64,000 nt of DNA. Source: Aliiglaciecola sp. M165. GTDB taxonomy: Bacteria; Pseudomonadota; Gammaproteobacteria; Enterobacterales; Alteromonadaceae. The stretch lies in assembly GCF_007197995.1 (NCBI RefSeq), contig NZ_VKKH01000006.1, forward strand, positions 434,001-498,000, in the 5' to 3' direction. The notes under the pieces were generated by a model. That model had not been told where the DNA came from and searched no databases. It saw only the letters and a program-made list of their open reading frames with translations. Below are positions 1 through 12,690 of the stretch, in pieces (the stretch's first letter is position 1; every line of letters starts with the position of its first letter). The position numbers and the translations under genes were made by a program.

Positions 1-238
1 TGTTAAAATTGTTAACTCACTGTCTAATAGCCCTATTCGCAGGCAAGATACGCCAAAAGTTTTTGATATTACAACTGTCGTTTATACATCGTCACCATCA
101 TATATTATGGCCCACAGTGCATTATTTGAAGGTGATGTAACATCAATAGTCGTACCTAAAGTGAGAGCGGTTGATATCGATGATATTTATGATTTCAAGC
201 TTGCCGAAGCCATTTTGAAGGAAATGCAAAATGCTTAA
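1..238 (+). CDS. Acylneuraminate cytidylyltransferase (NeuA/PtmB-like), C-terminal fragment
   Basis: Only the last 78 codons or so are in the window; the reading frame starts at base 2 and stops at 236-238. The tail, with a VPKVRAVDID segment followed by DIYDFKLAEA, matches the C-terminus of CMP-sialic, CMP-pseudaminic and CMP-legionaminic acid synthetases. These enzymes activate a nonulosonic acid with CTP in the cytoplasm. The stop overlaps the next gene by 8 bases, so the two are translated as a coupled pair. With ptmA- and ptmE-like genes downstream, PtmB (CMP-legionaminate synthetase) is the likeliest identity. The sugar specificity cannot be read from this fragment. Confidence 0.8.
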   Translation, partial: VKIVNSLSNSPIRRQDTPKVFDITTVVYTSSPSYIMAHSALFEGDVTSIVVPKVRAVDIDDIYDFKLAEAILKEMQNA

Positions 239-989
239 AGGAAAAACCATTTTGGTGCTTGGGGCTGCCGGAAAAATCGGAAGTGAAGTAGTACGTGGAG
301 CTTTGAAAGAGGGTGCTTCAGTGGTTGCTGCTGACGTTAATCAACTAAAAATGAAAAGTGATTTTGAACTTGAATTGATTGCATCGGGGGGAAAGTTGAC
401 ATTAAAAACTATTGATGTTCTTTGTGAGAAATCTACTCATGCAATTTTTAACGGATCAATTCATTTTGATGGATTAGTGAATTGTACTTATCCACGAAAC
501 GCAGCTTATGGGGCTTCGTTTTTAGACGTAAAGCTAAGCGACTTTAACCAAAATTTAAAAATGCACCTAGGGTCGGCTTTCCTTATAATGCAGCAAGCTG
601 CAAGGTACTTTGAGTCAAGCAAAAAACCTATATCAATAATTAACTTCTCGTCAATCTATGGATTCATAGCTCCGCGATTCGAGCTTTATCGTGGAACTTC
701 CATGACAATGCCAGTTGAGTATGCCGCGATTAAATCCGCCATTGTACATCTTACTAAATACGTATCATCCTATGTCAAACACAGTGATTTTAGGGTCAAC
801 TGCGTCAGTCCTGGCGGAATAATTGAAGGTCAACCAGATTCATTTTTAGAAGCATATAAGAAGCAGGCTGCGAGTAAGGGAATGTTAGATAGAGAAGATG
901 TAGTGGGAAGCGTGCTTTTTCTTTTGTCGGATCACTCCCGATACGTGCGTGGGCAAAACATAGTTGTTGATGATGGCTTCAGTTTATAA
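231..989 (+). CDS. Short-chain dehydrogenase/reductase, PtmA-like (nonulosonate pathway)
   Basis: This is a 252-residue classical SDR. A glycine-rich NAD(P)-binding motif (GAAGKIG, residues 11-17) follows the first beta strand. The catalytic set is Ser140/Ser141 with Tyr164 and Lys168 in a YAAIK motif, and the C-terminus has the usual SPGGI and DDGFSL segments. ATG at 231 lies inside the end of the upstream cytidylyltransferase (8-base overlap) after a GGA ribosome site. SDRs of this length next to CMP-nonulosonate synthetases are called PtmA (flagellin modification protein A) in Campylobacter, where they belong to the legionaminic acid locus. The substrate is inferred from context only. Confidence 0.85.
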   Translation: MLKGKTILVLGAAGKIGSEVVRGALKEGASVVAADVNQLKMKSDFELELIASGGKLTLKTIDVLCEKSTHAIFNGSIHFDGLVNCTYPRNAAYGASFLDVKLSDFNQNLKMHLGSAFLIMQQAARYFESSKKPISIINFSSIYGFIAPRFELYRGTSMTMPVEYAAIKSAIVHLTKYVSSYVKHSDFRVNCVSPGGIIEGQPDSFLEAYKKQAASKGMLDREDVVGSVLFLLSDHSRYVRGQNIVVDDGFSL

Positions 990-1178
990 ATACGTTTATT
1001 TGAAGCGAAAATAATTGCATCAACAATAGAGAAATTGGGTTGAGCGAATGCTAAAAATTTTCTAGATCACACGCATGTAATATTGAATTTTTAGTAGATC
1101 ACTTCATTTTTAGAGTTTCTGTCCGATAAAGCGATATAGAACGAAACTATTATTTAAGGTCTGTTATCAGGTAAGGCT

Positions 1179-2225
1179 ATGAAAAACTGGTATGACACGT
1201 GCGTGAGTAAGACCGATACAATTCGGGATACACTCAATAGAATTAATCAATCGAGCTTAAAAATAGCGTTGGTGGTAACAGATAAAAACCAGCTTTTGGG
1301 AACTGTAACAGACGGTGATATAAGACGCGCAATGTTAAATAACGTCAGTATGGAAACACCAATAGCATCAATCATGAGTCGCCAACCCAAAGTTGCGAAG
1401 CGTTCGACAAGCAAACGTCAACTGATTGATTTGATGGAACGGTATATGCTCAACTCTGTCCCAATTGTTTCAGAAGATTACATTGTTGAAGATCTCGTAT
1501 CTTTCCATCATTTGGTAAAAAGGCCCACTCGTAAAAACGCTGTATTACTAATGGCTGGTGGATTTGGTACTCGTTTGAGTCCACTCACTAACAACTGTCC
1601 AAAGCCGCTGTTAAAAGTTGGAGAGAGTCCGTTGTTGGAAATAGCTGTTAAAAATTTTGCTGATGCCGGTTTTACTCAGTTTTATATATCTACACATTAC
1701 ATGCCTGAAAAAATACGGGACTACTTTGGTGATGGCAGAAAGTGGGGAGTCAACATTTCCTACGTACACGAAGAAGTTCCTTTAGGAACCGCTGGCGCAC
1801 TTGGTTTGTTACCTAAATCTTCGCTGGAAGATGATATAGTCATTATGAATGGGGATATACTAACAAATATTGATTTTGATAAATTGCTTGAATTTCATCA
1901 AGAAAACCAGGCTAAAGCGACCATGTGTGTGCGTGAATATCAGCAACAGATCCCTTATGGTGTAATAGAAACAGATGGATATAAAATTACTGGAATCAAA
2001 GAAAAACCAACATCACAACACTTTGTTAACGCAGGGATCTATGTTGTTTCTCCAGAGTTGCTAGAAATGGTATCAAAAGGGCAATACATTGATATGACGA
2101 CGCTTTTAGAACTTAGTATCAGTCGTGAAAACGACGTCGCTGTGTATCCAATTTTAGATTATTGGTTAGATATTGGAAGATTAGATGACTTTCAGAAGGC
2201 CCAGATTGATGTTCAAAACTTATAA
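1179..2225 (+). CDS. CBS-domain sugar-1-phosphate nucleotidyltransferase (PtmE-like)
   Basis: The 348-residue protein has two N-terminal CBS modules (about residues 1-115) followed by a nucleotidyltransferase domain. The signature of sugar-nucleotide pyrophosphorylases, LLMAGGFGTRL then CPKPLLKVG, begins near residue 123, and the acidic metal site (MNGDIL) follows. This CBS-plus-transferase layout is that of Campylobacter PtmE, which makes GDP-glucosamine as the first committed precursor of legionaminic acid. A 189-base gap separates it from the SDR, so it may have its own promoter, but I see no convincing -35/-10 pair. The nucleotide (GTP versus others) is inferred from the PtmE likeness. 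Confidence 0.85.
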   Translation: MKNWYDTCVSKTDTIRDTLNRINQSSLKIALVVTDKNQLLGTVTDGDIRRAMLNNVSMETPIASIMSRQPKVAKRSTSKRQLIDLMERYMLNSVPIVSEDYIVEDLVSFHHLVKRPTRKNAVLLMAGGFGTRLSPLTNNCPKPLLKVGESPLLEIAVKNFADAGFTQFYISTHYMPEKIRDYFGDGRKWGVNISYVHEEVPLGTAGALGLLPKSSLEDDIVIMNGDILTNIDFDKLLEFHQENQAKATMCVREYQQQIPYGVIETDGYKITGIKEKPTSQHFVNAGIYVVSPELLEMVSKGQYIDMTTLLELSISRENDVAVYPILDYWLDIGRLDDFQKAQIDVQNL

Positions 2226-2286
2226 GTCGTTTTTATTGAAGTGTAATAAGTTTGAACAATTGAAATCGACGCAGTAGGTACTTCCG

Positions 2287-3252
2287 GTGAAACAAATACT
2301 ATTGATAGGCGCAGGTCAAATAGGGAGCCGTCATTTACAAGCATTAGCATTATCTCGACATCGATACAAGATTACCGTTGTTGACCCATCCCTTGCTTCT
2401 TTGAACACCGCTCGATCTCGTTTAGAAGAAATACCAAATCACATCGTCACTGTATCTTTCAGCCAAAAAATGCCCGTTAACGGTTTATTTCATTTAACTA
2501 TAATTGCAACAAATGCGAATCAAAGATTTGGTGTTTACAAGCAGCTTCAAGAATCAAATGAGTTACTTGCAGTAATATTCGAGAAAGTCATTTTTCAATC
2601 TTTAGAACACATTGATGAAGTAGAAACACTGCTTGCCACCCACAAAACAAAAGCCTGGGTGAATTGTGCCAGACGATCTAACGCACAATATCAGCATATT
2701 AGGCGTTTAATAAAAGGCCATTCTCCCGTTACTATGAGTGTAAGTGGTAATTTATTTGGCTTAGCTTGCAATGGAATACATTTTTTGGATTTGTTTGCTT
2801 TTTTGATTGGAGAACACGAACTGGATGGATTAAGTCAATCGTTTGACCTCGAATATGTTAAAACAAAACGTCAAGACTGCTATGAAGTCTTTGGCGAAAT
2901 GGAAGCCAATATTGGCGAAAATAAGCTCAATATTTATTGCTCCAACAAGCAGGAAGCCCAAAGTGTTAGATTGAATATTCAAACTAAAAATAAAAGATTT
3001 GTGATAGACGAAGTCAATCAAAAAATGGAGCAGTTTGAAAACAATCAAAATTTTGGGCTGCCAGCTGAATTCAAATTGCAACCGCAAAGCAAGATGACTC
3101 ATACTATTGCATACCAAATTTTTACGTTAGGTACTTGCAGTTTGCCAACGTACGCTGAGTCAGCGAAGCTTCATCGACATTATATTAGAGCGTTTACTGA
3201 CTACTTTGAAACTGTGAGCCCTGGGAAGTTTACTTTATGTCCAATCTCTTAA
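2287..3252 (+). CDS. Gfo/Idh/MocA-family oxidoreductase
   Basis: This 321-residue protein begins with a Rossmann motif, LIGAGQIGSRH (GxGxxG), typical of Gfo/Idh/MocA NAD(P)-dependent sugar dehydrogenases. The start is GTG at 2287. The family EKP motif is altered: the segment reads FEKVIF, so Lys is kept but Pro is lost. The C-terminal half is more divergent than in its neighbour at 3266. It sits in the nonulosonate island, 61 bases after the nucleotidyltransferase and 13 bases before a second family member, so the two are probably co-transcribed. Substrate unknown; modification of a flagellar or surface sugar is inferred from context. Confidence 0.75.
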   Translation: MKQILLIGAGQIGSRHLQALALSRHRYKITVVDPSLASLNTARSRLEEIPNHIVTVSFSQKMPVNGLFHLTIIATNANQRFGVYKQLQESNELLAVIFEKVIFQSLEHIDEVETLLATHKTKAWVNCARRSNAQYQHIRRLIKGHSPVTMSVSGNLFGLACNGIHFLDLFAFLIGEHELDGLSQSFDLEYVKTKRQDCYEVFGEMEANIGENKLNIYCSNKQEAQSVRLNIQTKNKRFVIDEVNQKMEQFENNQNFGLPAEFKLQPQSKMTHTIAYQIFTLGTCSLPTYAESAKLHRHYIRAFTDYFETVSPGKFTLCPIS

Positions 3253-3265
3253 TGCGAGAGTTCCT

Positions 3266-4222
3266 ATGATTTGGATCATTGGTGCAGGGCCAATGGGTAT
3301 GGAGTATGCCAAAGTAATACAGGCTCTCGATAGAGACTTTATTTGTATTACTAGAAGCCAATATTCTGCAAACGTTTTTGGGTCAAAATATCCGCAAAAG
3401 GTGGTTTCCGGAGGGTTAGCAAAATTTTTGGCTTCAAATCCCTCTCTTCCAAATCATGCAATTGTTGCTTCAGGTATGGAATGTCTATGTGATTTAACAC
3501 TTAATCTAATCGATGCAGGTGTGAAGTCAATTCTTGTCGAAAAACCTGGTGGAATGAACATCCAAGATATTAAGTCACTGGAAGCTGCATCCGAAGAAGC
3601 AAATTGTGAATTGTATGTTGCATACAATCGGCGTTTTTATGCTTCTGTTATTGCGGCGGAGTCAATGATTGAAAATGATGGTCGAGTCAGTTCCCTTAAT
3701 TACGAAATTACAGAGTGGGGACATGTAGTAAAAGACTTGAAACAATCGCCAAAGATAAAGTCAAAGTGTTTTATCGGCAATACAAGTCATGTTGTTGATT
3801 TAGCGTTCCATTTAGGGGGGCGTCCTACACAGATTAGCAGTTTCGTCAAAGACAAAACGGATTGGCACGAATCTGGCGCTAGCTTTGCGGGCGCCGGAGT
3901 AACGGAAAAAAGAGCACTTTTCGCATATTATGGAAATTGGAATGCACCTGGTAGGTGGAGCCTTGAGGTATTAACCAATCAGTGCCGGTATATATTCAGA
4001 CCAATGGAAAAATTGCAAATTCAAACGTTGGGCTCTATCAAAATAGAAAGTGTCAACATTGATTACAAACTAGACGAACTCTATAAACCAGGTCTTTACA
4101 AGCAAACTGAGTCTTTTTTGCGTGGAATTACTAAAAAGTTATGCCGGATTTCGGATCATTCTCTTAATATGAATCTTTATTATCAAATGGCCAATTACGA
4201 ACTAGAACAAGGGGGTGTTTAG
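3266..4222 (+). CDS. Gfo/Idh/MocA-family oxidoreductase (PtmF-like)
   Basis: The 318-residue protein has an N-terminal Rossmann fold (IIGAGPMG) and an intact EKP motif (LVEKPGG, near residue 93) with the downstream YNRRF segment usual for this family. It follows another Gfo/Idh protein by 13 bases and is followed by a sulfotransferase 2 bases after its stop, so translation is likely coupled. Campylobacter ptm loci carry an oxidoreductase, PtmF, beside ptmE, and this gene is the best counterpart. It probably oxidises or reduces a ring carbon of a nucleotide sugar; the exact step is not shown by the sequence. Confidence 0.8.
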   Translation: MIWIIGAGPMGMEYAKVIQALDRDFICITRSQYSANVFGSKYPQKVVSGGLAKFLASNPSLPNHAIVASGMECLCDLTLNLIDAGVKSILVEKPGGMNIQDIKSLEAASEEANCELYVAYNRRFYASVIAAESMIENDGRVSSLNYEITEWGHVVKDLKQSPKIKSKCFIGNTSHVVDLAFHLGGRPTQISSFVKDKTDWHESGASFAGAGVTEKRALFAYYGNWNAPGRWSLEVLTNQCRYIFRPMEKLQIQTLGSIKIESVNIDYKLDELYKPGLYKQTESFLRGITKKLCRISDHSLNMNLYYQMANYELEQGGV

Positions 4223-4224
4223 CG

Positions 4225-5082
4225 ATGCACTCTTTCAAGCCCTTGCTAATAAGTGGTCAGATGCGCTCAGGTACATCACTCCTTGCGAACTTTCTTGATG
4301 CACAAACCGAGATTACAGTGCATCGTGACAGGGCAACAGTTTTATTTAGAAATCAACATGGTGTCGAACATCCTCTTGATTTTCTCGTTGAACTATCTTT
4401 GACCGACAAGCAAGCTATTCGTCAATCAATTAGTAAAAACTTGGACACAATTTTCGCGGCTAAAGAAAGAGACGTAGGGCGGTTATTGGCTGAAATCAAA
4501 GAGAATTACAGGCTAGATTTTAATGTCAGAGAAACTAAAAATTATAGAGATATCATTTTCGACAGTTTTGCGGCAATGGCAAATAAAAAGGATCGATATG
4601 TCGGCACTAAAGTCACGTTGTGTGAGCATAATATTAATGCTTTCATAGACCAAGTAGATGGAAAAGTGATAAATATTGTACGGAATCCTATGAGCGTTAT
4701 TCAATCGTTAATATGCCGGGGATTCATGGAAGGTAAGTTAGCATCTTCCGCTAGTAAATACATTCATTCATGGAAGCGAGGCGCGAATCGACTGCTTGAA
4801 TGCAACAAAGATAATTTGTTTATTGTTCGGTTTGAGGATTTTATCTCTGACAAATCTGCTGTCAGTAAAGCGTTGGCTCAATTTTTAGAAGTCAACATTA
4901 ATCCGAATATTAACACTTTAAAAGACTATTCATTACCGTGGTTTGGTAACTCAAGTTTCGACAAAAATCTCATTGCAGTAGATAACTCTGTGGAATCAAG
5001 AAAAATTGAGCTGCCTGACGATCTGCGACATGAGATAAAAATTAACTGTCATGATGAAATGGCTAAGCTAGGCTACCTGTAG
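4225..5082 (+). CDS. Sulfotransferase-family protein
   Basis: The 285-residue protein starts with a P-loop-like 5'-phosphosulfate binding motif (SGQMRSGTSLLANFL, residues 10-24). It carries a second PAPS-contact motif of the 3'-phosphate type (IVRNPMSVIQS, near residue 153). Both are hallmarks of PAPS-dependent sulfotransferases, which transfer a sulfuryl group to a sugar or protein hydroxyl. No signal peptide or membrane anchor is visible, so it should act in the cytoplasm. It is the last plus-strand gene of the glycan island, 2 bases after the preceding oxidoreductase, and converges on the Maf gene with 13 bases between stops. A role in sulfating the glycan is inferred from position. Confidence 0.8.
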   Translation: MHSFKPLLISGQMRSGTSLLANFLDAQTEITVHRDRATVLFRNQHGVEHPLDFLVELSLTDKQAIRQSISKNLDTIFAAKERDVGRLLAEIKENYRLDFNVRETKNYRDIIFDSFAAMANKKDRYVGTKVTLCEHNINAFIDQVDGKVINIVRNPMSVIQSLICRGFMEGKLASSASKYIHSWKRGANRLLECNKDNLFIVRFEDFISDKSAVSKALAQFLEVNINPNINTLKDYSLPWFGNSSFDKNLIAVDNSVESRKIELPDDLRHEIKINCHDEMAKLGYL

Positions 5083-5095
5083 ACAAATGTTTTAA

Positions 5096-8000
5096 TCAAT
5101 TACAAACTATATTTCTCACTTTATGTTGATATGTTTCTAATTCATCTTCATTCATAAACTTGTACAACAAGTGCTTACACTGTAATTTTCCAATAATTAT
5201 TTTTGTTCTGCTTTCGTTATTGTGTAGGTTCAATGGTTGACTCGCAACTGGCCGAGCATGAACGCCTACATATAGTAAATTATCATAAGCTTGGTAGTTC
5301 TCAAGTGGTATGTCGACATCGCAATTACTCAGCTTAGTGCCTTCAAGTGCAATATGTTTGGGAACAATAAGATCATAATTTTGCTCACTTAGACATGCGA
5401 AAGTTGCTGCTTGGGCAAGCAATACAGGACCTAAATAAGTGGATGCATTTTCTATCTCCGTTACTAACATGTAACAAATATCATGGTATGAAGCCGATAC
5501 TTCTGCGGAATGAGAGAGAATTGCAATTGTATATTTATTACCTTTTTTTACTATTTCTGACGGGGAGATATGATCGTAAATTATGTAATCTGGCTCTCGC
5601 TTGAGTTCCAAAGCATCATTAAAGCTTAAAATGTCTACTTGCTCGATCCATGGTAATTGTTTTTCAATAATAAATTCAATACATGCTCGAAAACTAGGAG
5701 AGTTTGACACAAAGAGAATACTGCTTTGTCGGTAATTGTGTTTTAAGCTTTTTAGCTCCCTGAGCATTGGTTGAAATGATGAGCTATCGAAATCATCTTG
5801 CCTTCTCAGCGATAACAAGCATGAAATTTCCTCGAAGGCTTTCAACCAGGCATCTTTTGCGTCATTGAATGAACAGGAAAGGGATTGTTCTTCACTTCCG
5901 TTGTTTACCAACTTGGTTAACACAGCGTTTGCGTAATTGATCGTTCCATACAAATAGTAGAAAAGTAATGAGTTTCCTTTTTTATAGGAAGAAAATAACA
6001 ACTCTTTTTGATAATTAATAAGGTGATTGGCCTGCTTTATAGAGTCTACCTTCTGATTGAGTCTATCAATAAGTTTATCTAACTCTTTCTCCATTATTTG
6101 GTTAGAGTATTTAGCTTCAAAACGCCCGATAAAATTCTTATTAAATTCAGTGGTAAACACCGACAATTTGAGCCTTTTTAATGAGTCTTGTTTCTGTTTA
6201 GTACTTGATATTACTATCAAATTGTCTAAAGAAAGAGGCGTAGCGCCAATAATTTTTGCCCCGTCGCTGCAGTTAAAAAACTCTTGCCGTTTGCTACTTC
6301 GGTGGATGACTTGTTCAATGATTTGTTTAGATAGTTTAAATTCGTGTTTTGTATTTACTGTCGGCCGGAAGTTTCCAGGAACGATCAATGAAGTATTGTT
6401 CTTTTTAGCATAATCATATGTTTCATTTCCGTCTTCTTGATAATATCCAGAGGACTTCGAATGATGATGTTTAATGTCAAAAAAACCTAAGTCAACTCCC
6501 ATAAAGTAGATGTTGTTGAAGCCGAGTACAGTTACTAAGTTAGTGGCAAAGTTGCTGACGGTTGGAAAAGCATGTTGAAGTACTTCAAAATTCTCTGTGC
6601 CAAGAATGTTTAGAGCGGAGACGGTTGAAGATTCTCCTTCTTTAAATGCAATCATGACGTCTTTGTACAATTCACATGTATCTGGGTGAATACCGTTGCA
6701 AGAAATTAATGTAATATTCTTAAGGTATTGGCGATCTTCAATCAAAACCGCCCAATCGAATGTCGTGCGGTTTTGTTCTATTTCTGCATGAAAGTCAGGG
6801 GTTATCCCATGACGGCGAAGCGCTTGCAAAGCAGTGCCGCAACTAACGACTATGACTTGTTCTTTAAACGTTTTGATTGTGTCGATGGACATGTCTAAAG
6901 ATGGTCCATTTCCGACGATAAAAACAGGTACTTCCTTGTCTTCATAAGTTAATTTACTACTCGGGGAATTTCCCAAAATTGGCAAATCTCTATTGAACCC
7001 TGCCTTAGTATGAGCAATGCCATAATATGCGTGATCAAAGTATTCACCCATCGAAATCACGATTTGTAATTGTTCTCTCAATTGCGCTATTGAAGAGTTT
7101 AGAGACGCATTGTAGTAACTTTGGTAGAAATATGTATTGTTGAGAATATAAGGGCCGATAGAATGGAATTGATTGAGCAATTCCTTAAATAAGTGGGAGC
7201 CTTCATCTCCCACGTTGATATAAAGCCTAGCATTAGTTGCGTCAATTTTTTCTAAAATAGCTCTCCAGTCAATCGCAAACAAAGAGGAATAGAAAAAATC
7301 TCTATTCGGTTCGCATACAAATAACTTTTCAACTGAATGCTGATTCACTAATGTCTCTAGCTGATACCCCACACCAATGCCGAAAACAATTATTGATGCT
7401 ATGTTCTCAGGGAGTATGCCAGCTTCATTCTGTGCTTCTTTTAAAAGTTCTTCAGTCTCTTTAACAAACTTGTAATGTAAATAGTGCGCAAGCTTAGTTC
7501 CCCTGTAACCTAGAATCAAACCATCTTTATGTGGCTGTTGACTGTAGTTTTCGAAATTAATAGCGCAATCTTCTCTAGAGTTATCTGAGTACCAAGGTGT
7601 CATCGAATCAGATTGAACAACATTCACATCGCCTCTATCGTTTTGAATTGGCAACCAAATTTCAGGTTTATAGTCTTTGAATTCGCGATAAATGTCTGGA
7701 AAAAACTTTTTGAAAGCTAGGAGGTTATTAGTAAATATAGATGCTTTGGAATTACAGTCAGTGTAGTTCGCAATGTTGATGTTTGGTGTCCAGGGTGGAA
7801 CGTAGTTTTTGTAATTATCAGAGAGCTCATACGTGACTCCGCGTTCTTTAATAGTAGACCATTGTTTCTGGGTTAAATTTTTAAACACGTTATTGAATAC
7901 GGGGTGGTTATAATGTTTGTACAAATAAAAATGATGTATATCATCATATTGGGTTAATTCATCAATGTCTGCGACTAGACTCCTGCTATCTTTTTCGATC

Positions 8001-8605
8001 TGCAAAAACAACTGCGTTTTGTTTCGTTTTGCAATGTCAAAAATTTCGTGCCACTTGGTAATAAGAATTGAGCATTGAAAGTATTGTATTTCAGGTTCAT
8101 AAACGATTAGATATTTAATTTTTCTAGCTTTAATCAATTCAACTAAATGTATTCCAAGACCACATCCTAAAACTACCAAACAATCAATAGATTCTGGCAA
8201 AGAGGAGTAGCTCATTCGGCTAAGGTACCCCTTACTGTGAGTTAAGCTTTTATTAGCTTCAACATGGAATGAAGTTAAGCTTTTATTGTCTTCAAGCAAG
8301 GATATTTTGGGAGCGTGCGTTAAGAACTCTTCTACCTGCTCTTTGACCTCTTGTCGTGGATGAAAACCATATAAGGTACGTCCAATACCATAATCAACGA
8401 TATTTACTTCTCCAAAAACGTTGTAAAATAGAGAATGGTTTTGCAATTTTGGAGATTTGACTTGTTTCAGCAAAGACGGAATATTTCTTTCAAAACTATT
8501 AATATTTTTGCCATGGGTTTCTAGGATTATGCGGGCTAAAGATTCATCTAGATTCTTTTGTTTTTCTTCATCACTATCAATGTGCAGGCGTATGTTTTTT
8601 AACAT
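5096..8605 (-). CDS. Very large Maf-type (DUF115) motility accessory / flagellin glycosyltransferase
   Basis: This 1169-residue protein carries the DUF115/Maf core (about residues 540-800), opening with VPVFIVGNGPSLD and followed by GITPDFHAEIE. Maf proteins transfer CMP-activated nonulosonic acids to flagellin before export; Campylobacter, Aeromonas and Shewanella examples are usually shorter. The N-terminal half holds two copies of a Rossmann-like unit, at about residues 141-205 and 402-470. Each has a glycine loop (LGCGLGIHL; FGIGVGYQL), then an EP motif (VYEPE; VCEPN) and a Trp-containing helix. A further domain follows the core to the C-terminus. The gene sits between the sugar-synthesis genes and a flagellin, which fits a flagellin glycosyltransferase. 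Confidence 0.85.
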   Translation of the reverse strand: MLKNIRLHIDSDEEKQKNLDESLARIILETHGKNINSFERNIPSLLKQVKSPKLQNHSLFYNVFGEVNIVDYGIGRTLYGFHPRQEVKEQVEEFLTHAPKISLLEDNKSLTSFHVEANKSLTHSKGYLSRMSYSSLPESIDCLVVLGCGLGIHLVELIKARKIKYLIVYEPEIQYFQCSILITKWHEIFDIAKRNKTQLFLQIEKDSRSLVADIDELTQYDDIHHFYLYKHYNHPVFNNVFKNLTQKQWSTIKERGVTYELSDNYKNYVPPWTPNINIANYTDCNSKASIFTNNLLAFKKFFPDIYREFKDYKPEIWLPIQNDRGDVNVVQSDSMTPWYSDNSREDCAINFENYSQQPHKDGLILGYRGTKLAHYLHYKFVKETEELLKEAQNEAGILPENIASIIVFGIGVGYQLETLVNQHSVEKLFVCEPNRDFFYSSLFAIDWRAILEKIDATNARLYINVGDEGSHLFKELLNQFHSIGPYILNNTYFYQSYYNASLNSSIAQLREQLQIVISMGEYFDHAYYGIAHTKAGFNRDLPILGNSPSSKLTYEDKEVPVFIVGNGPSLDMSIDTIKTFKEQVIVVSCGTALQALRRHGITPDFHAEIEQNRTTFDWAVLIEDRQYLKNITLISCNGIHPDTCELYKDVMIAFKEGESSTVSALNILGTENFEVLQHAFPTVSNFATNLVTVLGFNNIYFMGVDLGFFDIKHHHSKSSGYYQEDGNETYDYAKKNNTSLIVPGNFRPTVNTKHEFKLSKQIIEQVIHRSSKRQEFFNCSDGAKIIGATPLSLDNLIVISSTKQKQDSLKRLKLSVFTTEFNKNFIGRFEAKYSNQIMEKELDKLIDRLNQKVDSIKQANHLINYQKELLFSSYKKGNSLLFYYLYGTINYANAVLTKLVNNGSEEQSLSCSFNDAKDAWLKAFEEISCLLSLRRQDDFDSSSFQPMLRELKSLKHNYRQSSILFVSNSPSFRACIEFIIEKQLPWIEQVDILSFNDALELKREPDYIIYDHISPSEIVKKGNKYTIAILSHSAEVSASYHDICYMLVTEIENASTYLGPVLLAQAATFACLSEQNYDLIVPKHIALEGTKLSNCDVDIPLENYQAYDNLLYVGVHARPVASQPLNLHNNESRTKIIIGKLQCKHLLYKFMNEDELETYQHKVRNIVCN

Positions 8606-8975
8606 AAATTTGGTTACGTCTTGTTGTTCACTATTAAAAGAAGTCAGAGTCAGTCTACAGAAAGCAATTTTTAGGCCTGTTTAAGTGACAGAAATTTGAC
8701 CTAAACAATGCCACACAATAGCTGTGCATTAATTTTAAAGCAAATAGCAGCTCTTTGTCGCAAACTAGAGAAGCTCCTTCTTATGGCTATGAAGATTATT
8801 GTTATTAAGTTTAATACTTGAAATCTAAATCATTGATTGCTCAAAGACCCACCGTTAGTTGATTTCTTTGGGCAAAGCGTACTTTCGTTGTAGCAAAGTT
8901 AAGGTATATTCCTACATGCTTACTTTATAACCAACCGTTTGCTATAATCACAAGAGGTATGTGAGAGGTTAAGTT
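8606..8975. other. Divergent intergenic region between maf-like gene and flagellin
   Basis: This 370-base AT-rich stretch separates two divergent genes. I find no open frame of note. Toward the flagellin there is a TATAAT at 8943-8948 and a GAGAGG ribosome site at about 8962-8967. A search by eye for a sigma-54 pattern (GG, ten bases, GC) or a sigma-28 pattern near the flagellin was negative. The promoter class therefore remains open. Confidence 0.5.
8943..8948 (+). promoter_or_regulatory. Possible -10 box for flagellin gene
   Basis: TATAAT is a perfect sigma-70 -10 hexamer 27 bases before the flagellin ATG, but no good -35 lies 16-18 bases upstream. It could instead be chance in AT-rich sequence, or part of a sigma-28 promoter that I cannot align. 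Confidence 0.3.
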
Positions 8976-9776
8976 ATGATTGAATTTGATACGGGCAACA
9001 ATGCTTCGTTGCTGCAACAGTTGCAACAACGGCAAGAAACTTTGTTTGAGCGTTTATCTTCTGGGCGTCGTGTAAATTCTGCTGCAGATGATTCAGCAGC
9101 GCAGCAGATTATAGACCGTCTAACGACTCAGGTAGAAGGCAACCGACAGGCAATTTCCAACGCGTTTGATGTTGTGTCATTGGCGCAGGTTGCTGAAGGT
9201 GGTTTATCCGGTATCAATGAAGATGTGAACCGAATTCGTGAGTTGTCCGTGCAAGCTGGAAATGGTTTGTTAACCGATGCAGATCGAAATGCGTTGCAGT
9301 CCGAGATCTCTCAATTGCAAGAAAATATCACTCAGACCATAGATCAAACCACATTTGGTGGCCGTGAACTGTTGACTGAAAATGGGTCGATCGATTTTCA
9401 AGTAGGTGCCAATGCGGGCCAACAGATTGGTGTGCAGACAGAGGATATTGCCTCGCAGCTAGAAGGTGTGCTGACTGTTGATGTATCAACCCAACAAGGT
9501 GCTGAAGAAGCATTGGAAGCCGCCGACGAGGCGTTAGAGGTTGTAGGTGGCGCAAGAGCTGAGTTAGGCGCTACTCAAAATCAATTTGAAAGTGCTGCAC
9601 GTAATCTTAGCCAGGCAGATGTGAATGTCGCTGCGGCCAGAAGTCGTATTCAAGACACTGACTTCGCACAAGCGACCTCAGAAAGTATTGCTACAGGTAT
9701 TCAAAGTCAGGCTGCTCTGACTGTGCAAGCACAAGCAAATCAGCAACAAGGGCAAGTTCTTTCCCTGTTGAGCTAG
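8976..9776 (+). CDS. Flagellin (short, with atypical N-terminus)
   Basis: The 266-residue protein has the two conserved flagellin ends that form the D0/D1 helices of the filament. The N-terminal part includes RLSSGRRVNSAADDSAAQQI and the LAQVAEGGL segment; the C-terminal part includes AAARSRIQDTDFA and ends in the usual LLS. There is almost no variable D2/D3 region, giving a minimal flagellin. The start MIEFDTGNNA differs from the common MALxVNTN. A GAGAGG ribosome site supports ATG at 8976. It lies between a Maf glycosyltransferase and flrA, and a strong terminator follows. Other flagellins may exist elsewhere in the genome. Confidence 0.92.
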   Translation: MIEFDTGNNASLLQQLQQRQETLFERLSSGRRVNSAADDSAAQQIIDRLTTQVEGNRQAISNAFDVVSLAQVAEGGLSGINEDVNRIRELSVQAGNGLLTDADRNALQSEISQLQENITQTIDQTTFGGRELLTENGSIDFQVGANAGQQIGVQTEDIASQLEGVLTVDVSTQQGAEEALEAADEALEVVGGARAELGATQNQFESAARNLSQADVNVAAARSRIQDTDFAQATSESIATGIQSQAALTVQAQANQQQGQVLSLLS

Positions 9777-9802
9777 ATATAAAATAATATTCCCCAGTGA
9801 AG

Positions 9803-9829
9803 AAAAAGCAGCATGGCTGCTTTTTTTTT
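9803..9829 (+). terminator. Rho-independent terminator after flagellin
   Basis: The stem AAAAAGCAGC / GCTGCTTTTT with a 3-base loop is followed by a run of T. It lies 27 bases after the flagellin stop and insulates it from flrA. Confidence 0.9.
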
Positions 9830-9872
9830 GCCCAGTTACCTGATTTTTATCACTAATCTTTCACAACTTTGG

Positions 9873-9900
9873 TTGCTATCCGGCAACGAATGTTTAAAAT
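9873..9900 (+). promoter_or_regulatory. Candidate sigma-70 promoter of flrA
   Basis: TTGCTA (9873-9878) and TAAAAT (9895-9900) are 16 bases apart and lie about 46 bases before the flrA start. A sigma-70 type promoter is expected for the master regulator, which sits above the sigma-54 genes. The match is fair, not strong. Confidence 0.4.
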
Positions 9901-9946
9901 CATGTATAGCTTCCTACAAAAATAAAAAAATAATCCTGAGGACACG

Positions 9947-11401
9947 ATGAGCATGATTTTGATTATCAGCGAGCAAAGCACGCGCGCCTATAATCTCAAA
10001 ACGATCTTGTCGTTTCTTGGTGAACAATGTTCAACTGTTTCGTTTTCTCAAGCCATCACTTCAATTACCTCTCAGGTCAACTATGAAGCGGTAATTATTG
10101 ATATGGAGTCGCCTGAGCTTACCGACGATGTAGTGAGTAAATTTCCCGCTCAGCCGTTTATCGTTATTGGTAATAAACACCTAGAGACAGACTTTCGCGC
10201 CAATATTGTAGGACAACTAACCGATCCTGTGACTTACCCTGTATTGACGCAAATGTTGTATCGCTGTCAGGAGTATTTGCGCAAACGTCCAGTGAAAAAC
10301 GCTGGGACAAGTAAAACCAAGTTATTTCGCAGCTTAGTAGGTAAAAGTGAAGAAATTCAAAGTGTTAGACATCTTATAGAACAAGTCTCCGGCTCTGATG
10401 CGAATGTCTTAGTGCTGGGTGAGTCAGGTACGGGTAAAGAAGTTATTGCGCGCAATGTTCACTTTTTGTCACATCGAAAAGATGGCCCTTTCATTCCCGT
10501 TAACTGCGGTGCTATACCTGCCGAATTGTTAGAGAGTGAATTATTTGGCCATGAGAAAGGAGCGTTTACCGGCGCAATCGGATCGCGAAAAGGGCGCTTT
10601 GAACTCGCAGAAGGTGGAACACTTTTCCTCGATGAAATCGGCGATATGCCGTTGCAGATGCAGGTTAAGTTGCTGCGAGTGCTGCAAGAAAGATTGTATG
10701 AGCGGGTAGGGGGCACCAAACCGATAAAATGCAATGTGCGTATCGTAGCCGCAACACACCGCGAATTGGAAAGCATGATCAGCGAAGGTACATTTAGAGA
10801 AGATTTGTACTACCGATTAAATGTTTTTCCTATCGAGAGTCCAGCATTAAGAGAGCGCAAAGAAGATATTCCACTGCTGCTTCAAGAGTTGGTTTCTCGA
10901 TTAGAGCAAGAAGTTGAATCTACATTAAGATTTACTGAAAATGCGATCAATTCGCTGGTAGAGCATCATTGGCCTGGAAATGTCAGGGAGCTATCGAATT
11001 TAGTCGAACGTTTACTTATTTTGTATCCCGATCAGGTCGTTGATGTTAAAGATCTGCCTAGTAAATATCAGTACACCAATGGCGATGATTTTCAACCTGA
11101 TTACCCTGAAGAGTTACTCGAGCGTGAAGCTTTGTTATCAATGTTTGGTGACGACTCGGATGATGACGGCGCCAATTCAGAACAAAGTGATACACAAGAT
11201 ACTGCTGAGCAAAGTGTTTCTTCTGCTTTACCTTCTGATGGAATGAACTTGAAAGAGTATTTGTCAGAGCTTGAAATTAGTATGATCAACCAGGCGCTAG
11301 ACCAACAGGATGGCGTTGTGGCTCGTGCTGCCGAAATCTTAGGAATGCGCAGAACAACATTGGTCGAGAAAATGCGCAAATACAACATTGTTAGGGACTG
11401 A
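9947..11401 (+). CDS. flrA: Flagellar master regulator FlrA/FleQ (sigma-54 dependent activator)
   Basis: The 484-residue protein has three parts. The first is an N-terminal receiver-like FleQ domain (about 1-125). The second is an AAA+ sigma-54 interaction domain with Walker A (GESGTGKE), the GAFTGA loop that contacts sigma-54, and Walker B (LFLDEIGD). The third is a C-terminal Fis-type helix-turn-helix (AAEILGMRRTTLVEKM). FlrA/FleQ activates the class II flagellar genes, including flrBC, and in Pseudomonas responds to cyclic di-GMP. ATG at 9947 follows a TGAGGA ribosome site; a second ATG two codons later is less well placed. A sigma-54 site lies immediately downstream, before flrB. Confidence 0.95.
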   Translation: MSMILIISEQSTRAYNLKTILSFLGEQCSTVSFSQAITSITSQVNYEAVIIDMESPELTDDVVSKFPAQPFIVIGNKHLETDFRANIVGQLTDPVTYPVLTQMLYRCQEYLRKRPVKNAGTSKTKLFRSLVGKSEEIQSVRHLIEQVSGSDANVLVLGESGTGKEVIARNVHFLSHRKDGPFIPVNCGAIPAELLESELFGHEKGAFTGAIGSRKGRFELAEGGTLFLDEIGDMPLQMQVKLLRVLQERLYERVGGTKPIKCNVRIVAATHRELESMISEGTFREDLYYRLNVFPIESPALRERKEDIPLLLQELVSRLEQEVESTLRFTENAINSLVEHHWPGNVRELSNLVERLLILYPDQVVDVKDLPSKYQYTNGDDFQPDYPEELLEREALLSMFGDDSDDDGANSEQSDTQDTAEQSVSSALPSDGMNLKEYLSELEISMINQALDQQDGVVARAAEILGMRRTTLVEKMRKYNIVRD

Positions 11402-11481
11402 ACCATTCTACTGTCATTTTGTTGACGTTCTTAAACCTGCTTTATAATCCTGTAAAACATTGAATTTAAACAATAAATAGT

Positions 11482-11497
11482 TGGCATGCGATATGCT
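11482..11497 (+). promoter_or_regulatory. Sigma-54 promoter of flrBC
   Basis: TGGCAT-N5-ATGCT matches the sigma-54 consensus TGGCAC-N5-TTGCW, with the essential GG (11483-11484) and GC (11495-11496) exactly ten bases apart. It lies 48 bases before the flrB ATG, and FlrA is known to activate flrBC in Vibrio. Confidence 0.8.
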
Positions 11498-11544
11498 AAT
11501 TCTCGTATTAGAAGTACTTTAAAGTTTTTTGACGAGAGGAAGCT

Positions 11545-12690
11545 ATGGCGCTGAGCAGTGCACTACATGAGTCGTTCGAATCTATCCATCACTCAATGGA
11601 TTATTCCGCTTCAAGCTCTGAAGATGAACCCAACGATGTTAAACGAGTCTCTATTGAAGAATTTGAGCAATTAAAAAATCAAGCCACCCGCTTAGAGCAT
11701 TTACTCCAAGTGATGCCCGCAGGTGTCGTAGTTGTGAGTGAAAAAGGCGTCGTTAAGCAAGCGAATGCCCTTGCAAAAAGCCTCTTAGGGGAGCCGCTTG
11801 AAGGTCAAGCTTGGCGTAACATCATTAAACGCTCTTTTAAACCTCAGGCCGATGACGGTCATGAGGTATCTTTGCACGATGGGCGTAAAGTCAAATTGTC
11901 AATAACGCCCTTAAAAGAAGAACCAGGACAACTTATTGTTTTGACGGATCTCACTGAAACGAGGCAATTGCAGCAACGTATCAGCCATATGCAACGACTG
12001 TCGTCACTAGGAAAAACCGTCGCTTCAATCGTTCATCAGATCCGCACACCTTTATCAGCAGCCATGTTATACGCATCAAATTTGGCAAGTAACCAATTGT
12101 CAGACGCCGCCCGTCAACGCTTTAGTGAAAAGCTCAGTTTGCGTTTAAAAGATTTGGAAACTCAAGTGAATGATATGTTGTTATTCGCCAAGAGCGGTGA
12201 ACAGCAAGTGGTGCAGAGTCTCTCTATCAAATCCTTATTTGAAGAAGTCGTGACTGCTTCAGACAACATGTTGCATACCTCTAAAGGTCAATTGATGGTA
12301 TCTAGCGAGCACAACGATCTTTGTATTTTGGGCAATAAACCTGCGTTAGTCGGGGCAATTCAAAACCTGGTGCACAACGCGCTGCAAATCCAGCCTAAAA
12401 ATCCGATTGTGGCATTGAATTGTCGTAGGCAAGACGACCACTTGATAGTCGATGTACTGGATAATGGCCCTGGCATTGACAAAAAGCACCTGATGAAAGT
12501 ATTTGAGCCTTTCTACACCACTAAAAGTCACGGCACAGGGCTTGGATTAGCAGTTGTTGCAACGGTGGCTAAGTCGCACGGGGGCAGCGTTTCTGTTGCA
12601 AATGTACAAGATAAAGGCGCATGTTTTTCCATTCAACTTCCCATTCATAACTCAGGTCATGAATCTAATCTTCAAGGAGATAAATCGTGA
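11545..12690 (+). CDS. flrB: Flagellar sensor histidine kinase FlrB/FleS
   Basis: The 381-residue protein has no membrane segment, as usual for FlrB. A PAS domain (about residues 45-140) precedes the HisKA helix with phospho-acceptor His164 in a VHQIRTP box. The HATPase domain follows, with its N box (NLVHNAL), DNGPGI and GTGLGLAVV. FlrB phosphorylates FlrC, which then switches on the basal body and hook genes. GTG of flrC overlaps its TGA stop by 4 bases, so the pair is translationally coupled. A sigma-54 promoter lies upstream at 11482. Confidence 0.95.
   Translation: MALSSALHESFESIHHSMDYSASSSEDEPNDVKRVSIEEFEQLKNQATRLEHLLQVMPAGVVVVSEKGVVKQANALAKSLLGEPLEGQAWRNIIKRSFKPQADDGHEVSLHDGRKVKLSITPLKEEPGQLIVLTDLTETRQLQQRISHMQRLSSLGKTVASIVHQIRTPLSAAMLYASNLASNQLSDAARQRFSEKLSLRLKDLETQVNDMLLFAKSGEQQVVQSLSIKSLFEEVVTASDNMLHTSKGQLMVSSEHNDLCILGNKPALVGAIQNLVHNALQIQPKNPIVALNCRRQDDHLIVDVLDNGPGIDKKHLMKVFEPFYTTKSHGTGLGLAVVATVAKSHGGSVSVANVQDKGACFSIQLPIHNSGHESNLQGDKS

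Follow-up and report, generated by a model that had tools for sequence, protein, structure and literature searches.

Flagellar nonulosonates have been studied mostly as pseudaminic acid (Pse) or legionaminic acid (Leg). The closest described systems are three. In the Aeromonas Group II island, pse genes are accompanied by a 3-oxoacyl-acyl carrier protein reductase, an AMP synthetase, luxE, luxC, Maf-2 and a segment that varies greatly and contains transferases. The GT-2 glycosyltransferase Fgi-1, whose gene follows luxC, starts the outer glycan there by adding its first sugar to Pse already bound to flagellin (PMC7874193). A GDP-type Leg pathway is described for Plesiomonas shigelloides and Campylobacter, and the P. 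shigelloides table places PtmF between PtmE and LegF (PMC4481668). Finally, the Pse5(di-O-methylglyceroyl)7Ac of C. jejuni carries 2,3-di-O-methylglyceroyl on Pse N5, proposed to be added after acetyl removal (PMC3068675). We analysed a stretch of 64,000 nucleotides from Aliiglaciecola sp. M165 (contig NZ_VKKH01000006.1, positions 434,001 to 498,000), termed the window, whose first genes close a flagellar glycosylation island on its right-hand side. The upstream genes were viewed in 40 kb of the same contig, nearly all of it left of the window.

The locus is most likely a real and well-bounded flagellar glycosylation island of a known type, the Aeromonas Group II kind. Of the features of Group II membership it has the pse set together with luxE/luxC and Maf, adjoining flagellar genes. 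Common to the described Group II islands and to the island analysed here are the pse genes, a reductase-like short-chain dehydrogenase/reductase (SDR), an AMP-ligase, luxE, luxC, Maf and a variable segment. The Pse part keeps the gene order given for Aeromonas. In the Aeromonas account, however, the variable segment lies between luxC and pseC, and the two arrangements are alike, not identical (PMC7874193). The segment after luxC differs in content, since here it holds a Leg-type cassette, LicD/TagD genes and a sulfotransferase. With the Plesiomonas/Campylobacter pathway (PMC4481668), the island shares LegB-, LegG-, LegI-, LegF-, PtmA-, PtmE- and PtmF-like genes and the flagellar setting. In contrast to that pathway it lacks LegC and LegH, its LegG is placed on a divergent branch, and it has in addition methyltransferases, an ATP-grasp protein, a HAD phosphatase, a PIG-L protein, two more Gfo/Idh enzymes and the sulfotransferase. 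What it would share with C. jejuni is the idea of a methylated acyl group that replaces an N-acetyl group on a flagellar nonulosonate; there the aminopeptidase-like Cj1295 is implicated, whereas here a PIG-L deacetylase, an ATP-grasp ligase and two methyltransferases have putative roles (PMC3068675). What is uncommon here is the LegC-less Leg-type cassette and the lone sulfotransferase. We give roughly even chances to the explanation that we favour, namely that this Group II-type island builds a Pse-rooted glycan with a second, LegC-free nonulosonate and probably a sulfate.

The genes of the island and its borders, from left to right, are:

Left flank, in order: flgG, flgH, flgI, flgJ, flgK, flgL, four flagellins (274, 280, 275 and 274 amino acids), flaG, fliD, fliS, a short gene
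Pse part, in order: pseB, pseC, pseF, a gene without assignment, pseI, pseG, a GNAT gene at the place of pseH
Middle part, in order: FabG-like SDR, AMP-ligase, LuxE, LuxC, LicD, TagD-like cytidylyltransferase, LicD, a gene for 337 amino acids
Leg-type cassette upstream of the window, first half, in order: LegB, TylF-type methyltransferase, second methyltransferase, ATP-grasp, HAD
Leg-type cassette upstream of the window, remainder, in order: LegG, PIG-L, LegI, Gfo/Idh enzyme, LegF
1..238, plus strand: 3' end of the CMP-nonulosonate synthetase gene legF/ptmB (whole gene L003:19243-19938; CTP_transf_3)
231..989, plus strand: PtmA-like SDR (NF006619, 328.9 bits, cutoff 255)
1179..2225, plus strand: PtmE-like nucleotidyltransferase with CBS domains (PF00483 and PF00571)
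2287..3252, plus strand: Gfo/Idh/MocA oxidoreductase, probably not PtmF itself (PF01408)
3266..4222, plus strand: Gfo/Idh/MocA oxidoreductase, termed gfo2 (PF01408)
4225..5082, plus strand: sulfotransferase (Sulfotransfer_3, 49.4 bits, cutoff 27)
5096..8605, minus strand: Maf glycosyltransferase of 1169 amino acids (Maf_flag10_N PF20157, 399 bits; MptE-like PF01973, 106.8 bits)
8976..9776, plus strand: atypical acidic flagellin paralogue, termed flagX (Flagellin_N, 98.8 bits; Flagellin_C, 66.2 bits)
9947..11401, plus strand: open reading frame of an flrA-like sigma-54 activator, the right border of the island, where the flr genes begin

The flagellar names in the left flank are our assumption, based on the order of the genes and on features of their sequences, and flrA is likewise presumed from gene order and what is known of the family. 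An earlier note, made from the window alone, had described a 'compact' island in which six sugar genes run into Maf and a flagellin. All the genes it named exist as open reading frames and belong to the families given or to near ones (SDR, CBS plus nucleotidyltransferase, two Gfo/Idh/MocA enzymes, Sulfotransfer_3, Maf_flag10_N plus MptE-like, flagellin N and C). Rather than being compact, the locus spans about 34 kb from fliS to flrA. The six sugar genes are all present, but of the first one, legF/ptmB, which starts some 460 bp before the window edge, only the tail lies within the window. The cassette carries on into the window with PtmA, PtmE, the two Gfo/Idh enzymes and the sulfotransferase, with gaps between neighbours of -11 to 189 bp from legB through the sulfotransferase. 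Maf is read from the minus strand towards the sulfotransferase gene, with a gap of 13 bp between the two, so the sugar genes and Maf are not one unit. The gene at 2287, taken as ptmF in the note, was probably misassigned, because in the genome G093 a homologue of L003:18263-19246, a gene that lies just to the left of the window, occupies the slot between PtmE and LegF where the P. shigelloides table has PtmF.

Profile searches confirm the Pse part, as PseB, PseC, PseF, PseI and PseG all exceed their curated cutoffs. The note had also proposed that legI and legG homologues be sought upstream. Both were found amid flagellar genes, LegI as a nonulosonate synthase (NeuB_NnaB, TIGR03569, 466.7 bits, cutoff 399.65) and LegG as a NeuC/LegG hydrolysing 2-epimerase (TIGR03568, 360 bits, cutoff 235.9), together with LegB (TIGR04180, 496.5 bits, cutoff 475). 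With a synthase upstream and flagellar surroundings, the locus is not the lipopolysaccharide locus without synthase that the note had allowed for. The legF/ptmB product reaches 135.8 bits with TIGR03584, under the PseF cutoff of 205.7, and the PtmA-like SDR 205 bits with FlagModPtmA, under the cutoff of 350. The PtmE-like protein is 66% identical to the syntenic protein of G685, a genome of another genus in the same taxonomic family. Syntenic homologues of the oxidoreductase at 2287..3252, with 32-40% identity, are found in G685, G052, G093 and G003. Full-length gfo2 homologues of more than 240 bits, apart from the gene itself, occur in G093, G003, G059 and G052 of 242 genomes of the order, and G685 has one of 48% identity. 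The G003 homologue (L252) contains one TAA within the match.

The Leg-type sugar of the earlier note stands insofar as homologues of LegB, LegG, LegI and LegF are present; a plain Leg route, however, is left without LegC or LegH. In a search of the whole own genome (G000) with the LegC profile TIGR04181 nothing exceeds the cutoff of 420 bits, and the best match, 228.7 bits, is PseC, which is also the sole match of LegC queries in the island. Queries with PglD and with the LegH-like protein of G052 gave nothing at E 1e-3 in tblastn against L004, L003 and window positions 1-12000, and LegH was not searched genome-wide. The same order of 14 genes, from legB to gfo2, is found in G685 with identities of 34-69%, and that genome has no LegC over the cutoff either. 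The cluster of G052 comprises LegB, LegG, LegI, a LegH-like protein, PtmE, an enzyme at the PtmF position, LegF, PtmA and two further Gfo/Idh enzymes; the gap of 13 bp between LegB and LegG holds no LegC, and the genome has none at E <= 1e-90. G093 has a dehydratase of another type, LegC, LegG, LegI, LegH, PtmE, an enzyme at the PtmF position, LegF, PtmA and two Gfo/Idh enzymes, and its cluster is likely the full form of the cassette. LegC is thus missing in two kinds of cassette within one family, that of G000 and G685, which also lacks LegH, and that of G052, which keeps the rest. A substitution of LegC by the two additional Gfo/Idh enzymes was considered and rejected, because in G093 and G003 one cluster contains LegC as well as a gfo2 homologue.

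LegC of at least 290 bits was found in 58 of the best 80 of 567 confirmed named LegB loci, and some of the other 22 break off close to LegB or reveal no synthase. In the order sample, where at most seven LegB candidates were scored per genome and the count is therefore a lower bound, at least 5 of 295 genomes bear LegB: G089 and G215 with LegC nearby, and G000, G052 and G172 with none over the cutoff. Of 51 loci that carry LegG together with LegI, 45 have LegC; the set is not a random sample, since eight of the loci searched were picked partly because they had already been found. Those without a LegC call are G000, G685, G052, G059 and two Muribaculaceae loci, where the threshold of 280 bits misses G059, whose LegC-like enzyme reaches 378.6 bits, under the family cutoff. 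In the LegG tree, G000 and G685 form a pair (support 100/99) on what appears as a divergent branch, grouped with Sphingomonas L159 and Undibacterium L167 (100/98), two loci that carry PIG-L as well as LegC; G052 is placed elsewhere. The label 'no LegC', given to seven rows including G059 and the edge-limited L148, changes five times over the 54 rows, four of the changes being forced by well-supported branches, with bootstrap values not settled. By this tree, the absence of LegC arose more than once. The LegC-less cassettes are a concrete case that clusters with 'Leg' names may not all make Leg. Five further LegB loci, mostly of Bacteroidales (L200:289-3250, L209, L211, L212 and L217), have an ATP-grasp gene directly after LegB and no LegC, and in four of them LegI follows the ATP-grasp gene.

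To place the two nonulosonates in the glycan, we compared 13 islands of the family (the own one, G000, and those of G272, G733, G702, G666, G734, G704, G729, G670, G685, G696, G052 and G172), of which those of G685 and G052 were fetched without reaching both ends. Matches to pseB, pseC, pseF and pseI are present in all 13, the LegG plus LegI cassette in three (G000, G685 and G052). Homologues of Maf, with 39-56% identity, are found in nine Pse islands (G272, G733, G702, G666, G734, G704, G729, G696 and G172), in none of which a Leg-type synthase was detected by tblastn. G670 was left out of this count for weak extra matches of synthase- and cytidylyltransferase-like type (25-27%). Judged from these nine islands, the most likely role of Maf is to attach Pse, with the Leg-type sugar most likely part of the variable outer glycan, contrary to the earlier note, which had Maf place the Leg-type sugar on flagellin. 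As to the Maf protein itself, its C-terminal approximately 200 residues are common to some homologues only: the alignment extends over the full length in G729 and to residue 1162 in G733, and in nine other homologues it stops near 927-1010.

From what is observed, namely gene content, gene order, domain families, the absence of LegC over its cutoff and the failure to find a close sulfotransferase relative, we infer substrates, products and the order of attachment as follows. PseB, PseC, PseF, PseI and PseG with the PseH-like GNAT protein would make Pse, which Maf probably puts on the four ordinary flagellins, and the genes right of luxC would build or decorate a heterogeneous outer glycan. PtmA, PtmE and the PtmF-like enzyme would supply a GDP-sugar, followed by dehydration by LegB, 2-epimerisation with loss of the nucleotide by LegG, condensation by LegI and activation by LegF. 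In the place of LegC and LegH the cassette has the TylF-type and the second methyltransferase, the ATP-grasp ligase, the HAD phosphatase and the PIG-L deacetylase, gene families that would fit a swap of an N-acetyl for a methylated acyl group. The sulfotransferase at the 3' end would put a sulfate on the Leg-type sugar or on a neighbour. A candidate transferase for the second sugar is the protein of 337 amino acids encoded before legB (L003:10202-11215), which has no match in Pfam, NCBIfam or the PDB and which may resemble GT42/Maf-like transferases.

Several observations weigh against this explanation. G052 retains a LegH-like gene without LegC, which the proposed acyl swap leaves unexplained. 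Contig C24 of the own genome (L278:7973-11635) encodes a PglF-like dehydratase, a PglE-like aminotransferase and a NeuD/PglD acetyltransferase, all over their cutoffs, and these genes could provide a 4-amino sugar. Right after luxC comes a gene for LicD, and Fgi-1 was not used as a query. The cassette of G685 has no sulfotransferase, so the cassette does not need one. Of the islands counted as free of a Leg-type synthase, that of G734 shows a legF-like match of 30%. Finally, in Marinifaba aquimaris (L166) a Maf homologue of 49% identity lies close to a Leg cluster that contains LegC, so a Leg-type donor for Maf is possible.

For the product of the cassette two readings remain: it may be Leg-like, with amination by the PglE-like enzyme of C24 or by PseC, or have a 7-hydroxyl group if the 4-keto group stays unaminated. 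That it is ordinary di-N-acyl-legionaminic acid, with one of these two enzymes aminating and LegG taking a UDP-linked 4-amino sugar, falls somewhat short of an even chance; this alternative concerns the identity of the sugar and is compatible with the island explanation that we favour. It is consistent with the three C24 genes, with LegG, whose best match among solved structures is a GDP/UDP-diacetylbacillosamine 2-epimerase (E 6e-59), and with B. subtilis, in which Leg is made from UDP sugars (PMC7439481). A UDP route would, however, leave LegB, PtmE and PtmA without a use, yet these are kept in G000, G685 and G052. The most far-reaching reading, a doubly acidic, sulfated 9-deoxy nonulosonate whose C7 bears a hydroxyl in place of the amine and which has an unusual methylated N-acyl group and decorates the flagellum beside Pse, seems to us quite improbable in all its parts taken together. 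The structure of fusaminic acid would likewise need a synthesis without LegC.

Two other explanations are unlikely, and about equally so. In one of them Maf moves a legionaminic-type sugar directly onto flagellin, where it is sulfated. Maf adjoins the Leg-type cassette here, its homologue in M. aquimaris lies near a Leg cluster, and in C. jejuni Maf4 is described as a putative legionaminyl transferase (PMC9298399). On the other hand, Maf is on the opposite strand, nine Pse islands have the homologue in the absence of a detected Leg-type synthase, and LegI and LegG are found in 3 of the 13 islands as against 13 of 13 for the pse genes. In the other, the Leg-type sugar and the sulfate are destined for a surface polysaccharide and not for flagella. 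Nonulosonate clusters often serve lipopolysaccharide or capsule, and LicD and TagD-like genes are also at home in polysaccharide loci; here, however, flagellar genes lie on both sides of the block, and no polymerase, flippase or chain-length families were found among the genes from legB to flagX, not every island gene having been searched.

The sulfotransferase gene starts 2 bp past the end of gfo2. A structural model of the protein, built from a six-row alignment, has a mean predicted local distance difference test (pLDDT) score of 65.5, with residues 42-105 and 231-259 below 50. Its best matches are TPST1 and other tyrosylprotein sulfotransferases (Foldseek E 1.5e-9; Z 17.9 over 226 aligned residues with a root mean square deviation of 4.4 A), followed by the sulfotransferase domain of a cyanobacterial olefin synthase and heparan 3-O-sulfotransferases (Z 15.4 and 15.3). 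The protein at 4225..5082 is thus predicted, from its model, to have the fold of sulfotransferases that use 3'-phosphoadenosine 5'-phosphosulfate, and from gene position and fold a sulfate on the glycan can fairly be inferred. That it acts on protein tyrosine is extremely improbable: tyrosylprotein sulfotransferases are the closest solved folds (Z 16.0-17.9), but sugar-acting 3-O-sulfotransferases come close to them (Z up to 15.3), the fold does not give the substrate, and the five flagellins hold two tyrosines together (0, 1, 1, 0 and 0), which makes sulfation of flagellin tyrosine unlikely.

No close relative of the sulfotransferase was found. A peptide-pattern scan of the genomes of 84,980 species, which detects close relatives only and from which the own genome was perhaps left out, found none; the same-genus genome G272 has no match, and PDB sequences give nothing up to E 0.1. 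In two overlapping samples that include the own genome, matches were found in 3 of 295 genomes of the order and 5 of 369 of the class, all but the own one weak. A sulfotransferase domain as such is present in 89 of 98 genomes of the family, among the matches listed mostly in long proteins. The island of G696 encodes a distant full-length relative (23% identity over residues 2-284). There is no support for the sulfotransferase as a regular component of such islands: matches to a hidden Markov model (HMM) occur in G000, in G696 (two) and weakly in G666 (two), of the 13 islands. The HMM has eight rows, seven motif-filtered domains (23 of 30 loci were dropped) and the own protein, and its counts are lower bounds. 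By Pfam, all four foreign proteins, those of G696 and G666, exceed the cutoff, one of them with 28.2 bits where 27 are needed. Among the best 80 of the 567 named LegB loci, the HMM has its sole match, again a lower bound, in Candidatus Brocadia, an anammox bacterium (L219). There, L219:10001-20896 carries LegB, aminotransferase, PIG-L-like, sulfotransferase, pseI-like and pseG-like genes, and the sulfotransferase between the PIG-L-like and the pseI-like gene is a second one in a nonulosonate-type cluster.

In open-access full text, which leaves the subscription literature mostly outside the scope, we found no report of a sulfated flagellar nonulosonate or, among the papers listed, of sulfated flagellin, and no paper that combines legionaminic with sulfotransferase and flagellin, or legionaminic with 'sulfate group' and flagella. 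Among the best matches, none combines flagellin with sulfotransferase and 'glycosylation island'. One listed paper, PMC9631793, has 'sulfated', 'flagellin glycosylation' and nonulosonic together, the first two in reference titles only, and the main text of PMC7874193 contains neither 'sulf' nor 'legionaminic'. If the favoured explanation is true, the sulfotransferase would add a sulfate to a flagellar nonulosonate, of which this literature has given no report.

The earlier note had taken the flagellin next to Maf as the target of glycosylation. This protein, FlagX, is one of five flagellins in the region and shares 44-48% identity with the other four. It is unlikely to be the main glycosylation target, having seven Ser/Thr in residues 130-190 as against 11-15 in the four ordinary flagellins; at a guess, it is a minor or specialised part of the filament. 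Its net charge is -23, compared with 0 to +4 in the ordinary ones, and at the N-terminus the VNTN-type start is replaced and five residues are missing, unlike an ordinary D0 N-terminus. In its structural model the long helices are kept, with residues 1-10 and 12-35 below a pLDDT of 50. A scan for sigma-28 promoters upstream of flagX gave no match in the window, and scattered weak matches elsewhere. A single flagX-like place at 200 bits or more is present in 42 of 98 genomes of the family, a border that is blurred because ordinary flagellins reach 199.9 bits. The orthologues are acidic in all 30 fetched loci (net charge -6 to -23), and within 1.5 kb of flagX lie flrA in 23 of them and the start of a Maf gene, on the opposite strand, in seven.

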